The translations under genes and the position numbers were made by a program. Shown here one piece after another: positions 2,426 through 11,651 of a DNA stretch of 41,988 nucleotides (positions are counted from its first letter, which is position 1; each line of letters opens with the position of its first letter). Below the pieces are notes generated by a model. It was not told where the DNA came from and searched no databases. It worked only from the letters and a program-made list of their open reading frames with translations. This stretch comes from Acetobacter sp. AN02 (GTDB lineage: Bacteria > Pseudomonadota > Alphaproteobacteria > Acetobacterales > Acetobacteraceae): the NCBI RefSeq assembly GCF_029759835.1, contig NZ_JAJJND010000011.1, forward strand, positions 1 to 41,988, given 5' to 3'.

Positions 2426-3151
2426 TCAGGGGACGCGGACGCCGCCGGATGTGGCCTGGTATGTTGCGATGGCGAGTGTTGTGGGTTCGAAGGGTTTTGT
2501 GATGACGAAGGCCGGTTCCACGGTGTTTCCGGTCAGGAGGGATTCGGGATAGGCGGTGACGAAGATGACCGGGACGTCGTTGTCCCGGAGGATTTCGGCC
2601 ACGGCCTCGATCCCGTTCCCGCCGGTTCCGAGGTTGATGTCTGCGAGGATGAGGCCGGGTTTCTGTTCCCGGGCAAGCGCCACGGCCTCTTTGTGTGTGT
2701 GGGCGACGCCGGCGATCGTGTGTCCGCAGGCCCGGACCTGGTCTTCGATGTCCATGGCGATGACGGGTTCGTCCTCGATGATGAGGATCGAGGTCCGGGC
2801 GGAGGCTTTCAGAGTTTCATATGTTTTCGCGAGCAGCGTGTCTGCCTGATCGGGGGACAGTCTGAGGACGTCTGCGGCTTCTTCCTCCGGGAGGTCTTCG
2901 AGTGAGATCAGGAGGAGGAGGCACCGGCTGGTGATGTCTTCCGCGTCTGAAAGAACTCTTGCGGCCCGTTCGCAAATGGCCTGATACAGGGTGAGGCGGG
3001 CGGCGAGCTGGCCGGAGGGGCTTCGTGAGAGATCCCGCAGACTTTCTGCAACGAGAAGATCGCCGTCGGACTGGCTTCCGGTAAGGGCCCGGGCGAAGCG
3101 GCGCGCATAGGGAAGGGTACGGATGAGTTCGCTTCGCTGCGACTCAGACAT
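2426..3151 (-). CDS. phyR: General stress response regulator PhyR (anti-anti-sigma factor)
   Basis: The 241-residue protein has the two-part PhyR build. An N-terminal sigma-like domain (about 1-115) has sigma2-like and sigma4-like helices, and a receiver domain (about 121-235) follows. The receiver shows the acidic pocket EDE at 126-128, phosphoacceptor Asp171 in LILADINLG, the VTAYPE stretch and the conserved Lys in ITKPFE. In alphaproteobacteria, phosphorylated PhyR exposes the sigma-like domain, binds NepR and so releases EcfG. Its divergent neighbours, two ECF sigma genes, nepR and a HisKA_2 kinase, confirm the role. The start is supported by an AAAGGAG Shine-Dalgarno sequence eight bases upstream of the ATG. 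Confidence 0.95.
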   Translation of the reverse strand: MSESQRSELIRTLPYARRFARALTGSQSDGDLLVAESLRDLSRSPSGQLAARLTLYQAICERAARVLSDAEDITSRCLLLLISLEDLPEEEAADVLRLSPDQADTLLAKTYETLKASARTSILIIEDEPVIAMDIEDQVRACGHTIAGVAHTHKEAVALAREQKPGLILADINLGTGGNGIEAVAEILRDNDVPVIFVTAYPESLLTGNTVEPAFVITKPFEPTTLAIATYQATSGGVRVP

Positions 3152-3235
3152 CAGGGTCGACTCCTTTGCGCGTCTGGTAACGGTTGCGGGTCATTACGAT
3201 TGCATGGTCTGCACGCATCCGAAAGGGTACTTGAT

Positions 3236-3775
3236 GTGAGAGACGCGGAGGGTGGCATAAAAACCACGGAAAATCAGAACTTTCGTGGTTCTCTGGTTTC
3301 GCTGCTGCCTGCTCTTCGTGGTTTCGCGCGGTTTCTGACCCATGATCCGGTCCGTGCGGATGATCTGGTTCAGGAGACGATCGTCCGTGCTCTGGCGGCT
3401 CAGGACCAGTTTACCGAGGGGACGAGTCAGAAGGCGTGGATGTTTACGATTCTGCGGAATCTGTTTTTCGAGCAGGTCCGCAGGCACCGGCGTGAGGCTG
3501 AGGTGATGGATGAGGCGGAGGCGGGGATCAGTCTGTCTCATGCGCCGCGTGCTGTCATTCAGGATGACATCCGGGATCTGGACCGGATGCTGCGGGATCT
3601 TCCGCCCCGGATGCGTGAGGCTCTGATTCTTGTTGCGGCTCAGGGGATGAGCTGTGAGGAGGTTGCCCTGATCACCGGGGTTGCGGTGGGCACGGTGAAG
3701 GCGCGGGTGTCGAGGGCGCGGCGGCTTCTGTCCGAGCAGCGTGCCGCGGGGGGTGTTCCGTCCGGCGTTGCGTGA
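3236..3775 (+). CDS. ECF sigma factor, EcfG type (copy 1)
   Basis: A 179-residue ECF sigma factor. Sigma2 holds ADDLVQETIVRAL and the tryptophan-containing KAWMFTILRNLF. Sigma4 holds LPPRMREALILVAAQGMSCEEVA and the helix-turn-helix GVAVGTVKARVSRARR. It diverges from phyR across 84 bases and precedes a second sigma gene and nepR, so it is probably an EcfG-class general stress sigma factor held by NepR. I chose the GTG at 3236 because GAAAGGG ends eight bases before it; a TTG at 3200 would add 12 unconserved residues. No gene symbol is assigned because two paralogues sit side by side and either could be the main EcfG. Confidence 0.88.
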   Translation: MRDAEGGIKTTENQNFRGSLVSLLPALRGFARFLTHDPVRADDLVQETIVRALAAQDQFTEGTSQKAWMFTILRNLFFEQVRRHRREAEVMDEAEAGISLSHAPRAVIQDDIRDLDRMLRDLPPRMREALILVAAQGMSCEEVALITGVAVGTVKARVSRARRLLSEQRAAGGVPSGVA

Positions 3776-3859
3776 CCTCACGTTCATGTGAAGATGAATT
3801 CGCAACCTTTCGTTTTTCCCGTTCATTGATGTTTCAAAAGTGCAGGGAGAACGAAAACG

Positions 3860-4450
3860 ATGTCAGATACATTTCATGACCAGATGGTGGTGATTCTCCC
3901 GAAGCTTCGCGTGCAGGCTCTGGCTCTGACCCGCAACCGTGCAGCGGCTGAGGATCTGGTTCAGGATGCGGTGTGCAATGCGCTGTCGGCGCAGGACAGT
4001 TTTACGCCGGGTACGAATTTTGCGGCCTGGATGCACAGGATTCTGAGAAACCGCTTCATTTCCGATCTGCGCCGCAAGCGGGCGACGACGGATATTGATG
4101 ATGTTCCGGGCAGCTTTCTTTCCACTGATCCGGACCAGGAAGATCGTCTGGCTGTGAAGGATCTGGCGCTTGCGCTGGGTCTTCTGCCGGCTGACCAGCG
4201 TGAGGCTCTGGTTCTTGTTGTGCTTCAGGGGATGAGTTATCAGGAGCTCGCGGAAATTGCCGGGTGTGCTGTAGGAACGGCCAAGAGCAGGGTGTTCCGG
4301 GCCCGGCGTCAGCTTGAGGCCTGGATGTCCGGCGATCTTCCGTCCGATGACAGGCTGCGTCAGAAGGCGGGCGAGCTGCGCGAGATGCTGCTTCGTCGCC
4401 GGAGAACCTCGACTTCCGTTTCCGGCCGTTCCGAGCCGGAGATGGTCTGA
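3860..4450 (+). CDS. ECF sigma factor, EcfG type (copy 2)
   Basis: A second ECF sigma factor of 196 residues, clearly a paralogue of the upstream one. Sigma2 has AEDLVQDAVCNALSAQDSF and FAAWMHRILRNRF, and sigma4 has LPADQREALVLVVLQGMSYQELA with the helix-turn-helix GCAVGTAKSRVFRARR. A C-terminal tail of roughly 40 residues is rich in Arg and Ser and is absent from copy 1. An AGGGAGAACG sequence just upstream of the ATG serves as ribosome binding site. The gene lies 84 bases after copy 1 and ends shortly before nepR, the usual EcfG-NepR arrangement, so this copy is the more likely canonical EcfG. Whether both copies bind NepR cannot be seen from the sequence. Confidence 0.9.
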   Translation: MSDTFHDQMVVILPKLRVQALALTRNRAAAEDLVQDAVCNALSAQDSFTPGTNFAAWMHRILRNRFISDLRRKRATTDIDDVPGSFLSTDPDQEDRLAVKDLALALGLLPADQREALVLVVLQGMSYQELAEIAGCAVGTAKSRVFRARRQLEAWMSGDLPSDDRLRQKAGELREMLLRRRRTSTSVSGRSEPEMV

Positions 4451-4534
4451 ATGGGGGCCGCGGTCGTGTTGATTTCTGGTGTGGGCGAATGGCTGCGGGC
4501 TGATGGCTATTACTACGGATCGGGGTGTTTTCTT

Positions 4535-4702
4535 ATGACGGAGAAGGACAGGAAGTCCGGAGCGTCAGGGAAGGCTGCGGATCCTGTATTTGATCTGTGG
4601 CTGCGCAAGGGGCTGCATCAGCTGTTTGATGATGTGGCCAGCGAGCCGGTTCCGCAGGAGCTTCTGGACCTGATTGAGCAGAGCAGGGGCAAGCCGGATT
4701 AG
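4535..4702 (+). CDS. nepR: NepR-type anti-sigma factor
   Basis: A 55-residue protein with the NepR core: WLRKGLHQLFDDVASEPVP followed by an amphipathic helix (ELLDLIEQ). These are the two helices that grip EcfG or, alternatively, the sigma-like domain of PhyR. The ATG at 4535 gives a length normal for NepR. An in-frame ATG at 4451, directly after the sigma stop codon, would add 28 residues with no family resemblance. The acidic, poorly ordered N-terminus also fits the family. It is co-directional with the two sigma genes and is followed by a hairpin that may end the transcript. Confidence 0.85.
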   Translation: MTEKDRKSGASGKAADPVFDLWLRKGLHQLFDDVASEPVPQELLDLIEQSRGKPD

Positions 4703-4723
4703 GGTTTCCCTGTCCGGCTTTAT
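4691..4723 (+). terminator. Hairpin after nepR, possible terminator
   Basis: The arms AAGCCGGA (4691-4698) and TCCGGCTT (4713-4720) pair perfectly over eight bases and enclose a smaller GGG/CCC pairing. Only TTTAT follows, so any intrinsic termination would be weak or partial. The left arm overlaps the last codons of nepR. It could attenuate transcription into the kinase gene. Confidence 0.4.
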
Positions 4724-4779
4724 GGTCAGGCTGCCCGCGGGAGGGCGCTCCGGGATGTGTGACGAGGGCCGGTCTGTGC

Positions 4780-6543
4780 ATGTTACGCGCGCTACGTAGA
4801 TTGCTTGGCAGGCGTATGGCTTCGGTCAACGCCCGGCTGTCAGTGATCGTGATCGGGTCTCTTGCTCCGGTTTCCGTTCTCGGCAGCATTCTGATCTGGA
4901 ACAGCTATCAGCAGTGGACGCGGCCTTCCGAGGTCGGGCTTCAGGATCTGGTCCGGAGGATGAAGTTCCGGCTCAACCATGATGTTGACCGGATCGGTTC
5001 CGTTCTTGAGACCACGGCGGTTCTTGATCCCTATTCCGAGCTTTTTGCCCGTGACGTTATGCTGGTTCAGAATCTCAGCGGGAGCAGGTTCTGTTTTATC
5101 GGCAGTGTGAAGCCGTCCGGCGAGATCGGGCGGTCGGGTGAGCTGACGTCTTCGGGCGGGAACTGTGAGCACGTTGTCGTCTCCCATGTTCAGCGGACCG
5201 GCAATCCGCCTTTTTCCGTCGTGACTGACCGGGGTGTTCCCTATCTGCTGATTATGGTCGGGGCGTTTTCTCCGTCTGCGACGTACAGTGATTCCAGCCG
5301 GGAGGTTCCGCAGGGTCAGGTTGTGGCGGCGATGCCGCTTGAGCAGAGCATTCTGCCACTGATATCGGACACGCATGGTTCGGTTCATCCTGAGGAGGGG
5401 CTGGAGGGGAGTCAGGTCTGGCTTCTGAACAAGGACGCCGGTGCTGTTGCCATCTGTCCGGAGTGTGGCTGGACGCTGCCGCCGGACATTCTTTCTGATT
5501 CCCGTGTAAAGGCTGTTTTTTCGGCATCGGGAGACCAGCGGCGGACTCTGGCGGATGCCTGGGTTTCAAAGGGGTATCTCTGGCAGACGGCGTATCTGGG
5601 GGGGGCGGTGCCTGTTCTGGCGGGCAAGCCTCTGTCTCCGGCCGAGCGCAGTGCGGGCAGTCTGTTTGTTGTCTGGCTGGCTGTTCTGGCCGGGATGCTG
5701 ACGGCGGCTCTGATCGGGGTTGCGATCGGTGCGAGGGAGCTTGTCCTGCGTCCCGTGCAGAAGCTCAAGGCGGCTGCGGTGAGCTGGGAGAAGACGGGTC
5801 AGTTTCAGGTCAGCCGCCGGGGGATGCCTCTGGAGTTCCGTCAGTTTGTCTGGGCGTTTCATCTGGTGACGGCGCGTCTCTCGCGCAGGGAGACCGAGCT
5901 TGAGCTGTCTCTTGAGGGGCAGCGTGAGCTTCTTAAGGAAGCGCATCACCGTGTGAAGAACAATCTTCAGATCATTGCGTCTCTTCTCAATCTTCAGGCG
6001 AGCCGGATTGCCGATCGGGAGGCGAAGGCTCAGGTTCTGCGGGCGCGTGAGCGTGTGCGGTCTCTGGGGACGCTGCACCGGTATCTTTATGACAGCGGGG
6101 ATACCAAGAGCTTTCATGTCCGGCCTTTTCTGCGTGAGCTGAGCGCGCAGATCGTTCTGAGCGGGAGTTCCGCGCGGGAGGGGGCAGCGGAGGTGCGTCT
6201 GCATTTTGATGCGGATGACATTACCCTGACGCCGGATCAGGCGGTGCCTCTGACTCTTCTTCTGACGGAGATCATGACCAACGCGGTGCAGTATGCGTTT
6301 CCGGATGGTCGTCAGGGGAAGGTTTCTCTTCTTGTGCGGAAGGAGGGGAACATGGCGACGGTTCGTGCCGGGGATAACGGGATTGGCATGACGAAGGAGA
6401 GTTCCGGGCTTGGCCTGCGTCTGATCAACGGGTTTTCCCGGCAGCTTGGTGCGAGGATGTCTGTCAAAAGCCGTCCGGATGAGGGGACGTGGTTTACGTT
6501 CCGGGGGATTGTTCTGGCGGATCCGCCGGAGCCTTTCTCCTGA
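4780..6543 (+). CDS. Membrane HisKA_2 sensor histidine kinase, probable general stress response kinase
   Basis: A 587-residue sensor kinase. A first membrane segment lies near residues 23-43 (SVIVIGSLAPVSVLGSILIW). A large periplasmic part of about 240 residues holds paired cysteines, including CPEC. A second membrane segment lies near 295-318, followed by a short linker. The kinase core has the HisKA_2 H-box AHHRVKNNLQII (phospho-His about residue 390), N-box EIMTNAVQYAF, GDNGIGM and GLGLRLI. HisKA_2 kinases such as PhyK typically phosphorylate PhyR, and the position beside nepR supports that partnership. The start is uncertain: GTG 4759, ATG 4780 and ATG 4816 are all possible, and I used 4780. 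The CPEC motif hints at redox or metal sensing, which is only inference. Confidence 0.88.
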   Translation: MLRALRRLLGRRMASVNARLSVIVIGSLAPVSVLGSILIWNSYQQWTRPSEVGLQDLVRRMKFRLNHDVDRIGSVLETTAVLDPYSELFARDVMLVQNLSGSRFCFIGSVKPSGEIGRSGELTSSGGNCEHVVVSHVQRTGNPPFSVVTDRGVPYLLIMVGAFSPSATYSDSSREVPQGQVVAAMPLEQSILPLISDTHGSVHPEEGLEGSQVWLLNKDAGAVAICPECGWTLPPDILSDSRVKAVFSASGDQRRTLADAWVSKGYLWQTAYLGGAVPVLAGKPLSPAERSAGSLFVVWLAVLAGMLTAALIGVAIGARELVLRPVQKLKAAAVSWEKTGQFQVSRRGMPLEFRQFVWAFHLVTARLSRRETELELSLEGQRELLKEAHHRVKNNLQIIASLLNLQASRIADREAKAQVLRARERVRSLGTLHRYLYDSGDTKSFHVRPFLRELSAQIVLSGSSAREGAAEVRLHFDADDITLTPDQAVPLTLLLTEIMTNAVQYAFPDGRQGKVSLLVRKEGNMATVRAGDNGIGMTKESSGLGLRLINGFSRQLGARMSVKSRPDEGTWFTFRGIVLADPPEPFS

Positions 6544-6588
6544 GGGAGGCGTGGCTTCGGCGGTGTTCTGATCCGGGCTGTCTCGTGT

Positions 6589-7633
6589 TCAGGGTGTGAG
6601 TTCGGGATGTGTGCGGGGGGTGCTGTCGGCACCGGCTGTCTGTCTGAGGCAGGCGCGGGCCAGTTCGGGCAGCATGTTCCGGGATGTGTCGTGGTTGTAT
6701 TCCCGGGCCAGCAGGGCGTGGATGAACAGGGCGGTCTGCGGCTGTGCGAGGATGTCCTGTATGGCGCTCCGCACGGGTCCGTCCTGGCAGACATCGAAGC
6801 AGAAATCGCAGGTGCTCAGGGGCCAGTAGGTTTCAAAGCGGCTGTCATGTGCGACGAGCTGTTCGCGCAGCCAGTCGAAGCCGAGTGACTTGATGGCGGC
6901 CCAGAGCGTGTTTTCCTGTTCCCGTCGTGTTGTCTGTTCCGGGCTGTCCAGCAGGATATTTCCGAAATCGAGCGGGTGTGCGCGGGTTCTGAGCGAGACG
7001 ATGGTGTTGCAGCAGGGGATGACGCGTCCGTCCTCGAACACGTGTGGTCCGGTTGAGGGGCACAGCCCGTAGCGTGTTGCGCTTCTTCCGGTCTGAGAAA
7101 TCCGCTGAGTTCGTCGCGGAGTTTTTTTCCTCATCCGTCATGATTTCAGCATGGGTGAGGCGGACGGTTATTTTTGCCTTGCGGGCGCGCATGGCTTTCA
7201 TGGCGTTGTGGACGTGGCCCAGGGGGATGAAGGACTGGTGATGCACGTCTGTCGAGACGGTCATGAATTTTATGTCCGGGACGGCGGCGAGCGCTTTCTC
7301 GCAGCTTTCCGGTGATTTTGCCCAGAAGGCGCTGGTGATCGCGCCGTAGCGTGCGCCGTGTCCGGAGACGATGGCGGCGAACTGTCTGAGTTCTCTGGTG
7401 TGATGGAAGGGTTCTCCGCCTGTGAAGGTGACGAAGCTGACGTTGGGGCGCAGGCGGAGATAGTCTCCGAAGGCTTCTGCGAGGCCCGGGGCGCCGCGGT
7501 TCGTGTCCGGGGAGGAGCCTGAGACGCAGTGGGCGCATTTCAGCGGACAGGAGTTGGTGACAGATATGGCGATATGCTCGCCATATCTGCTCAGCTCGAA
7601 GTCCGGGGCGGGTTCTGAGCTGAATGTGGTCAT
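6589..7633 (-). pseudogene. Radical SAM protein with SPASM-like tail, frameshifted at a poly-A run
   Basis: The first frame begins at the ATG ending at 7633 and shows the radical SAM cluster motif CPLKCAHC (Cys 29, 33, 36) and GGEP at 72-75. Near residue 169 it meets seven A on the coding strand (7122-7128), after which the family-like sequence continues in another frame. That second frame shows GRSATRYGLCPSTGP, DGRVIPCC (a C-x10-G-x4-C pattern) and CDFCFDVC, resembling the auxiliary cluster cysteines of SPASM or twitch domains. Removing one A would join both parts into 347 residues. Without repair, translation runs 262 codons to 6845 and lacks the auxiliary site. The gene follows a small peptide gene by 12 bases, which suggests peptide modification. 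It may be a true pseudogene, a phase-variable gene or a sequencing error. Confidence 0.8.
7122..7128 (-). repeat. Seven-base A homopolymer at the radical SAM frameshift
   Basis: Seven T on the plus strand read as seven A in the coding strand of the radical SAM gene. Loss of one A restores a single 347-codon frame that joins the catalytic half to the C-terminal cysteine half. Homopolymers of this length are prone to slippage by DNA and RNA polymerase and to sequencing error. Confidence 0.85.
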
Positions 7634-7645
7634 GATATCAGGGCT

Positions 7646-7897
7646 TCAGATATCGATGACGGTGATGATCGTCTTGATCATCGCGGCGTTGTCGATGCCG
7701 TTTTTAATACCGTAATCCGTCAGGCGCCTGCGGAGCACATCTCCGGAGACACCGAAGAATTTGGCCCGGTTTGCGGGACTTTCGAAGAATGTATCCGGAT
7801 CATTTGCGAGGGTGCTGAGATCGGCGTTTGTCAGTTCGGGGACGGAGAGCTTTGAAGAGGAGGACTGGGAGTAGGGATTTTTGACGACGCGGGCCAT
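7646..7897 (-). CDS. Small protein upstream of the radical SAM gene, candidate modified-peptide precursor
   Basis: I do not recognise a family. The 83-residue product has no cysteine, no signal peptide and no membrane segment. It begins with a Ser-rich stretch (SQSSSSKLS), has an acidic middle (TNADLSTLANDPDTF) and ends in a hydrophobic tail, MIKTIITVIDI. The gene ends 12 bases before the radical SAM start, on the same strand, which is the usual setting for a ribosomally made peptide and its modifying enzyme. That role is inference: no known leader motif or repeated core is visible. It could instead be a small regulatory or structural protein. It is preceded by an AT-rich leader unlike its surroundings. 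Confidence 0.6.
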   Translation of the reverse strand: MARVVKNPYSQSSSSKLSVPELTNADLSTLANDPDTFFESPANRAKFFGVSGDVLRRRLTDYGIKNGIDNAAMIKTIITVIDI

Positions 7898-7958
7898 ATT
7901 TTTATTTCCGTGTCCAGGAATTTAGAAAAAATTGCAAATATTTTTACTTGCAAGTGCC

Positions 7959-7971
7959 TGAGTCGCACTCA
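7959..7971. promoter_or_regulatory. Perfect palindrome TGAGT-CGC-ACTCA, candidate operator
   Basis: Two five-base arms flank a three-base centre. It lies just downstream of the minus-strand TATAAT, where a repressor would cover the predicted transcription start of the peptide/radical SAM pair. I cannot name a regulator for it. Confidence 0.4.
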
Positions 7972-7977
7972 TTCAGT

Positions 7978-7983
7978 ATTATA
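7978..7983 (-). promoter_or_regulatory. Possible -10 box for the peptide gene
   Basis: The minus strand reads TATAAT here, a perfect match to the sigma-70 -10 box. It lies about 80 bases upstream of the ATG of the 83-codon gene. No good -35 box sits 16 to 18 bases further upstream, so an activator or an alternative sigma factor would be needed. Confidence 0.35.
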
Positions 7984-8175
7984 AATATTTACCGATTCGC
8001 CATATTTAATTGGTTATTATTTGTATCTTATCTTTTCCGGTTCAGAAAATGACATCGTTTCATGCGGAACTGTTGCAGAGCGGGAACAGCGTGCCGGGCG
8101 GGTTCTGACGGTGGCACACGGCACCTTTTCGTCTGGTGACTGTCTCGTTGTCCGGGAGTCCGGTATAGAGCCGGT

Positions 8176-9930
8176 ATGAGCGACACTAAGGCAGCGATAC
8201 GGCTCTGGACGAAGGCGCAGATGCGGCTGGGGTTCAGGGCGGGCAGTCCCGTTATTCTGATATCCATGGTTTCCGCGCTTCTGGGGGCGGGGCAGATGTG
8301 GTGCCTTGCATCGGTGCTCGGGCCGGTTCTGGCGCGTACGATGGCCGGGGGCGGTGCGGAGCCGGAGGCCGGCATGGCTGACGGTGTTCCTTTATGGGGT
8401 GTGGCCGGGTTTGCGGTCTGTGCGCTTTTGCGGGTCGTGGCGGGGATCGTGTCCGAGGGGCTGGCCGCGCGGGCCGGAGAGGTGGCGCGGCGGCGTCTGC
8501 GGCGGGACGTTATGGGGCGTGTCGTGGCGCATGGTCCTGCGCTGCTGCGGCGCAGTCACAGCGGGGCGTTTGCGGCTCTGATCGTTGACCGGATCGAGGC
8601 GGCTGACGGGTATTTCTCGCGCTGGGTTCCGGCTTCGGTTCTGTGGATGGCGATCCCGGCTCTTCTGCTTGTGTGTGCTTTTGCGGTTCAGCCGTTTGCA
8701 GCTCTGATCCTTCTGGTTTGCGGTGCGGCGGTTCCGGTGTGTCAGGCGGTGTTCGGGATCGGTGCGGCGGTTGCGTCGCGCAATCAGTTTCTGGCGATGA
8801 CGCGGCTTCAGGCGCGGTTTCTTGACCGTATCCGCGGGATTGCGACGATTGTTCTGGCGGGCCGGGCTGAGGATGAGGCGCGGCGTCTGGCGGAGGCGGC
8901 GTCTGATCTGCGTGTCCGGACGATGAAAATCCTGCGTGTTGCGTTTCTGTCCTCTGCCTCCATCGATGTTGCGATGGTTGTGGCCCTGATCGGGATCGCG
9001 CTTGCGGATGCGCATGGTGTGAGCGGGATTCAGGCGATGATTTCGGCGCATCCGGATCATGTTGCGGCTCCGGCTGCTGCGGTGACGCGGGGGATGTTCG
9101 TTCTTCTGCTTGTTCCTGAGTATTTCGCGCCGTTCCGTGGTCTTGCCCTGGCCTATCAGGATCGTGCCCATGCCCAGGGGCTGGCGTCTTCGGTTCTGGA
9201 GCTTCCGGAGCTTGCGGAGCGCGAGGCGGGGGCGCCTTTGCAGTCTGTCGGGCCGGAGGGGGTTTCTGTTGCGTTCGAGGATGTGAGTTTTACGTGGGAC
9301 CCGGCGCGGGGGCAGGCTCTTTCGGATGTGAGTTTTGCCGTCCCCGCGGGGCAGGCGCTGATTCTTTCGGGGGTTTCGGGGTCTGGCAAATCGACTGTCA
9401 TGGAGCTTCTGCTTGGCTTTGTGCGTCCTGGCAGCGGTCGTGTTCTGTTCAGTGGCACGGATCTGCGGGATATCGCACCGGACAGTCTGGCGCGGATGAC
9501 GTCCTGGATCGGGCAGCGTCCGGTTCTTTTTGCCGGGACGCTGCGTGAGAACGTTCTGTTCGCGCGTCCGGAGGCGACGGAGGCGGAGTTGTTTACGGCG
9601 CTGCGTGCGGCGGCTGTGGACCGGTTTCTTCCGTCTCTTCCCGATGGTCTGGATACGCCGGTGGGTGAGGGCGGGTTTGGTCTTTCCGGCGGGCAGGCGC
9701 AGCGTGTTGCGATTGCCCGGGCCTGGCTGAAGGATGCGCCGCTTCTGCTTCTGGATGAGCCGACGGCGCATCTCGATCCTGCGACGGAGGCGGATGTGTT
9801 TGAGAGTCTGCGGCGTCTTGCGGCGCGGCGGACGGTGATCATGGCGACGCATTCGGGGGCGGCTGAGGCGATTTCCGGGCATCGTGTCGTTCTGTCGGGT
9901 GGCTGTGTCGTCCGGGGTTCGGAGGTCTGA
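8176..9930 (+). CDS. cydD: Thiol reductant ABC exporter subunit CydD
   Basis: A 584-residue half-transporter with an N-terminal membrane domain of about six helices (residues 20-320) fused to an ABC cassette. The cassette has Walker A GVSGSGKST near 402, signature LSGGQAQRVAIARAW near 503 and Walker B LLLLDEPTAHLD near 523. CydD pairs with CydC to export glutathione and cysteine to the periplasm, which is needed for cytochrome bd assembly and periplasmic thiol balance. It overlaps cydC by one base (TGATG), so translation is probably coupled. The ATG at 8176 directly precedes family-like sequence, although the Shine-Dalgarno sequence is weak. No cydAB genes lie in the window. Confidence 0.92.
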   Translation: MSDTKAAIRLWTKAQMRLGFRAGSPVILISMVSALLGAGQMWCLASVLGPVLARTMAGGGAEPEAGMADGVPLWGVAGFAVCALLRVVAGIVSEGLAARAGEVARRRLRRDVMGRVVAHGPALLRRSHSGAFAALIVDRIEAADGYFSRWVPASVLWMAIPALLLVCAFAVQPFAALILLVCGAAVPVCQAVFGIGAAVASRNQFLAMTRLQARFLDRIRGIATIVLAGRAEDEARRLAEAASDLRVRTMKILRVAFLSSASIDVAMVVALIGIALADAHGVSGIQAMISAHPDHVAAPAAAVTRGMFVLLLVPEYFAPFRGLALAYQDRAHAQGLASSVLELPELAEREAGAPLQSVGPEGVSVAFEDVSFTWDPARGQALSDVSFAVPAGQALILSGVSGSGKSTVMELLLGFVRPGSGRVLFSGTDLRDIAPDSLARMTSWIGQRPVLFAGTLRENVLFARPEATEAELFTALRAAAVDRFLPSLPDGLDTPVGEGGFGLSGGQAQRVAIARAWLKDAPLLLLDEPTAHLDPATEADVFESLRRLAARRTVIMATHSGAAEAISGHRVVLSGGCVVRGSEV

Positions 9931-11651
9931 TGATGCGCGGGCGTAGAAAATCCAGCGAGGCTCTGGCGGATCTTGCCGGGCAGGAGGAGGCTCTGACGGA
10001 TGTTGCGGCGATCCGTGAGGTTGTCGGTCTGTGGAAGCCGCAGCGTGTGCGGCTGGTGACGGGTGTCGTGCTTTCGGTTGTGGCTCTGGGCTGTGGTCTG
10101 GCGCTGATGCGCGGGGCCGGTCTGCGGTATTCGGGGGCTGTGACCGGGGCTCTGGTCGTGGGGTCTTCGGCTCTGGCCGTTCTGGGTGTGTGTCGGGTTG
10201 TTTTCCGTTATGCCGAGCGGCTTTATGCGCACGGGGCGATGTTCCGGGCTCTGGCGGATCTGCGCGTGTGGTTTTTCCGCAGGCTGGCGGGCGGGGCTGC
10301 GGCGGGGCTTGGTTTCCGCCGTGCGGGGGAGCTTTTGTCGCGGCTTGTGAGCGATATCGAGGCTCTGGACGGGCTTTATCTTCGTGTGCTTCTGCCTGCC
10401 GTTGCGGCCTGCGTGATCCTGCCGGTTCTGTGGTTTGCTCTGGCGCGTTATGACGTGCCTCTGGCGTCTGCCGTGGTGCTTCTGTTTCTGGTGTCCTGTT
10501 TTGTCGTTCCGGTGACGGCGATGCGGATCAGCCGCCAGGAGGGGGGTGTTCAGCTTCAGGCTCTGGGGCGTCTGCGCGTGGGGGTTCTGGATCTTGTGAG
10601 CGGGATTCGTGAGATCCGTGCGTTCGGGTCCGAGGAGCGGATGCTCGGTCGGGTGCGTGAGGCGGATGAGGAGCTGATGCGGTGTCAGGCGGCTCTGGCG
10701 TGGCGGATGGCTCTGGCGGATGGTGTGTCGCGGCTGTGCGGTTATGGTGCGGTTGTGCTTCTGCTTCTGGCCGTGACGGGGACGGGGTTTTCGGTGCTTC
10801 CCGTTGTTCCGGCTGTCGGTCTGATCTTTCTGGTTCTGGCGGGATTTGAGAGCGTGTCGTCCCTGACGCGGGCGGGGATGCTGTCCGGCATGATGGGGGC
10901 TGCGGCGCGGCGTGTGGTCGCGGCTGCGGGGCCTGAGGAGCGGCGAGTGCGTGCGGGGGGCGGTGCGCTGCTTCCGGCGCCGGAGGAGACGGATATCCGG
11001 TTTGATTCCGTGACGTTCCGCTGGCGCGAGGACGGTCCGAAGGTTCTGGATCGTCTCAGCCTTGATATTCCTGCCGGGTCGCGCGTTGTGATCCTTGGTC
11101 CGTCGGGAGCGGGGAAGTCCAGCCTGGCGGCTCTGCTTCTCAAGGTTGTCTCCCCTGAGGGCGGGCGGATTCTTCTGGGCGGGGCTGATCTTGCGTCGGT
11201 TTCGGATGTGTCCGTGCGGCAGCGTGTGGCGTGGCTGTCTCAGGCGACGCATCTGTTTGATGATACGATCCGTGCCAATCTTCTGCTCGGGCGTCCGGAC
11301 GCGTCTGAGGATGATCTGTGGCGGGCTCTGGATGATGCGGCTGTCGGCGATGTGGTTCGTGAGCTGCCGCAGGGTCTTGATACCTGGCTGGGTGAGGGTG
11401 GTGTTCGCGTGTCCGGTGGTCAGGGGCGGCGGATTGCGCTGGCGCGGACGCTTCTGTCCGGTGCGCCGGTTCTGCTTCTGGATGAGCCTGCGACGGGTCT
11501 CGATTCACAGACGGAGATGGAGTTTCTGGCCACTCTGAACCGTGTGGCTGAGGGGCGGACGGTGATTCTGATCGCGCATCGTCTGACCGGTGTGGAAAAA
11601 CCTGATTACGTCTGGAAAATTTCCGAAGGTCAGGCCATCCTGGTTTCGTGA
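9930..11651 (+). CDS. cydC: Thiol reductant ABC exporter subunit CydC
   Basis: A 573-residue half-transporter. The CydC hallmark RYAERLYAHGAMFRALADLR lies after the second membrane helix (about residues 92-111), followed by WFFRRLA. The C-terminal cassette has GPSGAGKSS near 392, signature VSGGQGRRIALART near 495 and Walker B VLLLDEPATGLD near 515, ending with a normal H-loop (LIAHR). It forms a heterodimer with the upstream CydD in the inner membrane. The stop codon overlaps the GTG start of recQ (GTGA), so the cyd genes and recQ appear to share a transcript. The first two codons are both ATG and either could be used. Confidence 0.92.
   Translation: MMRGRRKSSEALADLAGQEEALTDVAAIREVVGLWKPQRVRLVTGVVLSVVALGCGLALMRGAGLRYSGAVTGALVVGSSALAVLGVCRVVFRYAERLYAHGAMFRALADLRVWFFRRLAGGAAAGLGFRRAGELLSRLVSDIEALDGLYLRVLLPAVAACVILPVLWFALARYDVPLASAVVLLFLVSCFVVPVTAMRISRQEGGVQLQALGRLRVGVLDLVSGIREIRAFGSEERMLGRVREADEELMRCQAALAWRMALADGVSRLCGYGAVVLLLLAVTGTGFSVLPVVPAVGLIFLVLAGFESVSSLTRAGMLSGMMGAAARRVVAAAGPEERRVRAGGGALLPAPEETDIRFDSVTFRWREDGPKVLDRLSLDIPAGSRVVILGPSGAGKSSLAALLLKVVSPEGGRILLGGADLASVSDVSVRQRVAWLSQATHLFDDTIRANLLLGRPDASEDDLWRALDDAAVGDVVRELPQGLDTWLGEGGVRVSGGQGRRIALARTLLSGAPVLLLDEPATGLDSQTEMEFLATLNRVAEGRTVILIAHRLTGVEKPDYVWKISEGQAILVS

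Follow-up and report, generated by a model that had tools for sequence, protein, structure and literature searches.

Locus and gene content

The window, that is, the whole 41,988-nucleotide stretch of Acetobacter sp. AN02 DNA that was analysed, carries two short minus-strand genes between a sensor kinase gene and cydD. The first is an 83-codon open reading frame, and the second is a radical SAM gene that is present as two pieces in different reading frames.

4759..6543, plus strand: HisKA_2 sensor kinase gene, one boundary of the insertion
6544..8175, unstranded: kinase–cydD interval of 1632 bp, a lineage-specific insertion
6589..7062, minus strand: C-terminal half of the radical SAM gene, lying in ORF 7134-6589, out of frame with the N-terminal half
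7063..7126, minus strand: junction of 64 nt, delimited by comparison with homologues, with an A7 run at the change of reading frame
7127..7633, minus strand: N-terminal half of the radical SAM gene, with the SAM/[4Fe-4S] core
7646..7897, minus strand: 83-residue, cysteine-free putative precursor peptide with the Ile/Val-rich C-terminus MIKTIITVIDI, defined from the ORF list and codon usage
8176..9930, plus strand: cydD, the other boundary of the insertion, followed by cydC (9930-11651)

The 83-codon gene

An earlier note on this DNA had described a small gene that encodes no cysteine and ends 12 bases before the start of the radical SAM gene, and this arrangement was confirmed, with the ORF at 7897-7646 stopping 12 nt ahead of the ATG at 7633. 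The ORF is a coding sequence and not a chance frame, because its codon adaptation, with the resident minus-strand genes as reference, is 0.56 compared with 0.28 ± 0.04 for shuffles and 0.24 and 0.28 for the other two same-strand frames. Its product has, as had also been noted, no recognisable family: there were no Pfam, NCBIfam or PHROG family matches and no significant sequence match in the PDB. A single-sequence AlphaFold model is mostly helical at moderate confidence (pLDDT 71), and Foldseek returned no fold match for it.

The genome holds no second copy of the gene, which was found in none of the 48 congeners searched, and no other genome among the 398 of the family gave a match of meaningful score; the wide occurrence of the small protein away from the enzyme that the earlier note had considered was thus not seen. 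Two weak family matches (L075 and L076) are at chance level across the roughly 400 genomes searched, and one of them sits in an HTH antitoxin-like ORF.

The position of the 83-mer beside the enzyme gene, its lack of any other family and its Ile/Val-rich tail suggest that it would be the precursor and substrate of the enzyme, and homology plays no part in this assignment, as none was found to known precursors in Pfam, NCBIfam, the PDB or a profile of the relatives' precursors. It could instead be a small helical protein with no link to the enzyme, perhaps a regulator that binds DNA, and owe its place beside the enzyme gene to chance. Such a role would suit the mostly helical model, the lack of homology to the relatives' precursors, the weak match to the antitoxin-like ORF (E=0.004 per genome) and the resemblance of the stretch RAKFFGVSGDVLRRRLTDYGI to a helix-turn-helix, a possible motif that no library supports. 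However, no Pfam HTH family matches the 83-mer up to E=10, its model has no fold match, the 12-nt spacing suggests a single transcript and in the enzyme's relatives small genes stand at the same place; we regard a fortuitous neighbour as unlikely, though by no means far-fetched.

A radical SAM gene in two frames

The earlier note had read one radical SAM gene across 7633-6589, a reading that joined two frames: the N-terminal half lies in ORF 7633-6845 and the cysteine-rich tail in ORF 7134-6589. The SPASM-like cysteine set that it listed (C-x10-G-x4-CC and CxxCxxxC) is nonetheless present, together with the radical SAM CxxxCxxC motif, which reads NSCPLKCAHC (codons 7549-7526), and the C, CC and CxxC of the C-terminal half stand at positions conserved among homologues. 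Against a profile built from eight homologues of the enzyme, the N-terminal piece aligns from position 11 (116.5 bits) and the C-terminal piece over positions 213-332 (36.5 bits). The cysteine codons are placed as follows, all on the minus strand.

7549, 7537 and 7528 (codon starts): CxxxCxxC of the N-terminal half
7062, 7014, 6810 and 6801: auxiliary-cluster cysteines
7011-7009: candidate hydrogen-donor cysteine, the second Cys of PCC within IPCC
6789: an extra cysteine in the C-terminal half

Glu169, whose codon ends at 7127, is the last clearly homologous codon of the N-terminal piece and the first cysteine of the tail is at 7062, leaving 64 nt where the eight homologues have 44-90 codons. 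This length is not a multiple of three, and it implies a loss of at least ~68 nt relative to the homologues (64 vs at least 132 nt). The window gene lacks the predicted TIM-barrel segment that carries the GR[A/G] motif, and it encodes no complete TIM barrel in a single frame; the Gly-Arg motif of this segment is present in seven of the eight homologues, with the eighth aligned as Gly-Glu. As the codon usage of the junction weakly favours the third frame (0.50 vs 0.32 ± 0.09 for shuffles), there may be two lesions, one of them at the A7 run. As assembled, the gene should be unable to yield a whole enzyme, and its product would be non-functional.

Two further readings of the sequence at the break were considered and rejected. 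A programmed −1 frameshift at A_AAA_AAC (approximately 7127-7120) would lead into the third frame, not to the cysteine tail, and has no way to supply the missing barrel segment. A GR-like motif in the frame of the N-terminal half past the break was discarded, since the other frame of this DNA gives CPSTGPHVFEDGRVIPCC, a sequence that fits the homologues better.

The lesion is either recent or an assembly error, because there are no stop codons within either piece, the codon usage of both is native-like (0.71 vs 0.68-0.72 for resident genes) and the catalytic cysteines are all kept. These same properties, along with the draft state of the genome (186 contigs), would also fit a segment lost and a homopolymer slipped at the A7 run during sequencing or assembly, in which case the locus would be a live Gram-negative system of the epipeptide type. 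Assemblers do not usually drop ~68 nt or more from the middle of unique sequence, however, and the 83-mer gene is single-copy in the genome; we find this explanation rather doubtful, and the gene is more plausibly dead than mis-assembled.

Genes on both strands of the window have a codon index of ~0.7 on their own strand and 0.2-0.4 on the opposite one. This reflects a strong compositional bias between the strands, to which the enzyme gene is fully adapted and the 83-codon gene largely. Because of this bias codon log-odds derived from plus-strand genes were uninformative, and the calculation was repeated with minus-strand training.

Relationship of the enzyme to YydG/EpeE

Searched against the PDB, the profile of eight homologues aligned along positions 7-316 with 8ai1-8ai6, which are structures of YydG, at E=2e-45, the next-best protein being PqqE (3.5e-10), and SkfB scored 3.3e-9; YydG was also the first structural match for each of two homologues used singly (L003 and L012). 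The best NCBIfam family for the N-terminal half is TIGR04078, the YydG peptide epimerase (E=1e-12), and the two halves score 48.2 and 13.7 bits, far below the curated cut-off of 300 bits. At E<=1e-12 this family has no match in the genome's own set and is found in two of 200 genomes of the host family, while among 14 control genomes only B. subtilis contains it. A tblastn search of plasmids with the N-terminal half gave three matches, two of them annotated as YydG epimerase.

EpeE epimerises Val36 and Ile44, with Cys223 as the proposed hydrogen donor (PMC8326336). Mutation of the donor cysteine in EpeE is reported to lead to breakage of the peptide. The second cysteine of PCC in the window (7011-7009) is probably the counterpart of Cys223, judging from the mutated 8ai3 chain, which has Ala at this position (PCA) where the window keeps Cys. 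Most homologues also keep it, and because L003 and L011 are without it the chemistry may vary within the wider YydG-like group. This variation and the low identity to EpeE would allow the enzyme to carry out another peptide reaction, for example C-C or C-N crosslinking, in place of epimerisation, but with the donor cysteine kept in the window and most homologues and EpeE by far the best structural match, this is improbable.

Genomic setting

The gap between kinase and cydD measures 51-133 bp in the 29 congeners examined, compared with 1632 bp in the window, and the pair of genes is a lineage-specific insertion; its codon usage has ameliorated, so the insertion is not very recent. No close relative of the enzyme was found in the 48 congeners, where other radical SAM genes match weakly, and the relatives of the enzyme half within the family are all distant ones (in G163, G189 and G320), the first of these genomes having a two-gene locus of similar layout. 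Co-occurrence of the pair across Acetobacteraceae, which the earlier note had suggested checking, was not seen, as neither the 83-mer nor a close enzyme relative was found in the 48 congeners.

In another Acetobacteraceae genome (L079:6341-7793), a 111-codon ORF ending in GGQLVMVGHAAVE is followed by a YydG-like gene, and this two-gene locus lies upstream of a recA-like ORF and has no transporter. A phage origin of the pair was rejected for want of any phage match, as was a plasmid origin, there being no DNA match in plasmids and distant YydG relatives at the protein level only. The locus showed neither a tRNA nor an Rfam element, and no convincing repeat flanks it.

On the kinase side of the pair lies a general stress response cluster (2426-6543), which includes the following genes in addition to the kinase.

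2426-3151, minus strand: PhyR
3200-3775 and 3860-4450: two ECF sigma genes
4451-4702: NepR-like anti-sigma

Neither a protease nor a dedicated exporter adjoins the pair, whose neighbours are the kinase and the divergent cydDC genes, in agreement with the earlier note; the EpeP membrane protease and EpeAB ABC transporter of an epipeptide locus are not beside it. The RiPP C-methyltransferase family TIGR03975 reaches at best 95 bits in the genome, under its cut-off of 281.85, with no match above it.

A probable disrupted locus of the epipeptide type

We read the locus as a two-gene RiPP system of the epipeptide (YydG/EpeE-epimerase) type with a disrupted enzyme gene, at a probability of roughly 60%. 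The earlier suggestion of a ribosomal peptide with its maturase is supported insofar as the enzyme has YydG/EpeE-like relatives, several of which lie beside small precursor-like genes and RiPP C-methyltransferases, and fails insofar as the enzyme was taken to be intact; it also named no reaction for the enzyme. The radical SAM enzyme of an intact ancestor would have used SAM cleavage to take the alpha-hydrogen from particular residues, most plausibly Ile or Val, within the 83-mer's C-terminal tail MIKTIITVIDI, and a hydrogen given back by the cysteine encoded at 7011-7009 would have left D-residues. The earlier view that thioether chemistry from cysteine is unlikely agrees with such an epimerase.

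The likeness to YydG/EpeE and YydF/EpeX of Bacillus subtilis extends to the radical SAM core with a C-terminal C...CC...CxxC and candidate hydrogen-donor cysteine, and to the small adjacent gene with a Val/Ile-rich tail, the putative precursor gene preceding that of the enzyme. In contrast, the window enzyme is broken and scores below the TIGR04078 cut-off, the 83-mer resembles none of the known precursor families, neither a protease of the epeP type nor a transporter of the epeAB type is adjacent and the host is Gram-negative. Epipeptides are described from Firmicutes in the literature consulted (PMC8326336). Epimerases are moreover one branch of a large superfamily, and identity of 25-35% is not enough to assign a reaction; the 83-mer has no significant similarity to the precursors of the relatives, and protease, dedicated exporter and C-methyltransferase are all absent beside the pair. 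The locus is most likely a degraded, divergent relative of TIGR04078/epipeptide systems that likely worked like one, and it was not filed under either TIGR04078 or the epipeptide operon because defining features of each were looked for and not found.

Other peptide-modifying radical SAM systems are less close. The proteusin epimerases PoyD and OspD likewise introduce D-residues into ribosomal peptides and have a proposed hydrogen-donor cysteine, but they show no significant homology to EpeE and contain a single cluster (PMC8326336). SPASM sactipeptide maturases such as SkfB share the radical SAM core and C-terminal cluster domain, but require cysteine in the peptide, of which the 83-mer has none, and the profile match to SkfB is much weaker than that to YydG. 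For annotators the locus carries a caution, in that a radical SAM maturase would be called here from a gene that, as assembled, should not give a whole enzyme.

Gram-negative relatives and C-methyltransferases

The window probably holds a dead copy, and the more valuable lead is the Gram-negative YydG-like branch that is paired with C-methyltransferases. In three loci of this same enzyme branch (L008, L010 and L013) the YydG-like gene is followed by one for a RiPP C-methyltransferase of the B12 type, which scores 547-613 bits against TIGR03975, well above the cut-off; the window has none. A small gene of 72-79 residues lies directly upstream of the enzyme in L010 (Sphingomonas pokkalii), L012 (a Caulobacterales MAG) and L013 (an Alcanivoracaceae MAG), with products ending in SVHVDF, IIHLDG and VVHIDI, respectively. 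The ITVIDI of the window resembles these ends loosely, a likeness that is suggestive only, and homology of the 83-mer to the three precursors was rejected, as an HMM of the three sequences ranks it 154th among ~4700 scored self-shuffles.

We tentatively propose, as a possibility that falls somewhat short of even odds, a rare Gram-negative branch of YydG-like epimerases, distributed over Alphaproteobacteria, Gammaproteobacteria, Acidobacteria and Planctomycetota and acting on precursor families of its own, some members of which would pair with a B12-type RiPP C-methyltransferase to give epimerised and C-methylated peptides; the window would then be a minimal, transporter-free, two-gene member. 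Epimerisation and methylation are both listed for polytheonamide (PMC8326336), where the combination arises through unrelated enzymes. If the proposal is true, the Gram-negative YydG-type epimerases beside C-methyltransferases would provide D-residue peptides and allow two unrelated routes to one modification, the EpeE type and the PoyD type, to be compared.

The loci of these relatives seem to be larger clusters that bring epimerisation and C-methylation together. In the Acidobacteria MAG (L008:3653-8097) two tandem YydG-like radical SAM genes precede the TIGR03975 gene, and a possible precursor of 104 residues is encoded upstream of them (3288-3602). The Alcanivoracaceae cluster (L013:1949-7956) unites the small gene, the YydG-like gene and TIGR03975 and includes, upstream of the small gene, a further radical SAM gene that is sulfatase-maturase/cyclophane-like. 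In a Planctomycetota MAG (L011:2504-5975) the YydG-like gene, which is without the second PCC cysteine, lies near an NHLP-type exporter-like ABC protein (below cut-off) and a precursor-like protein of 167 residues with Ala/Asn repeats.
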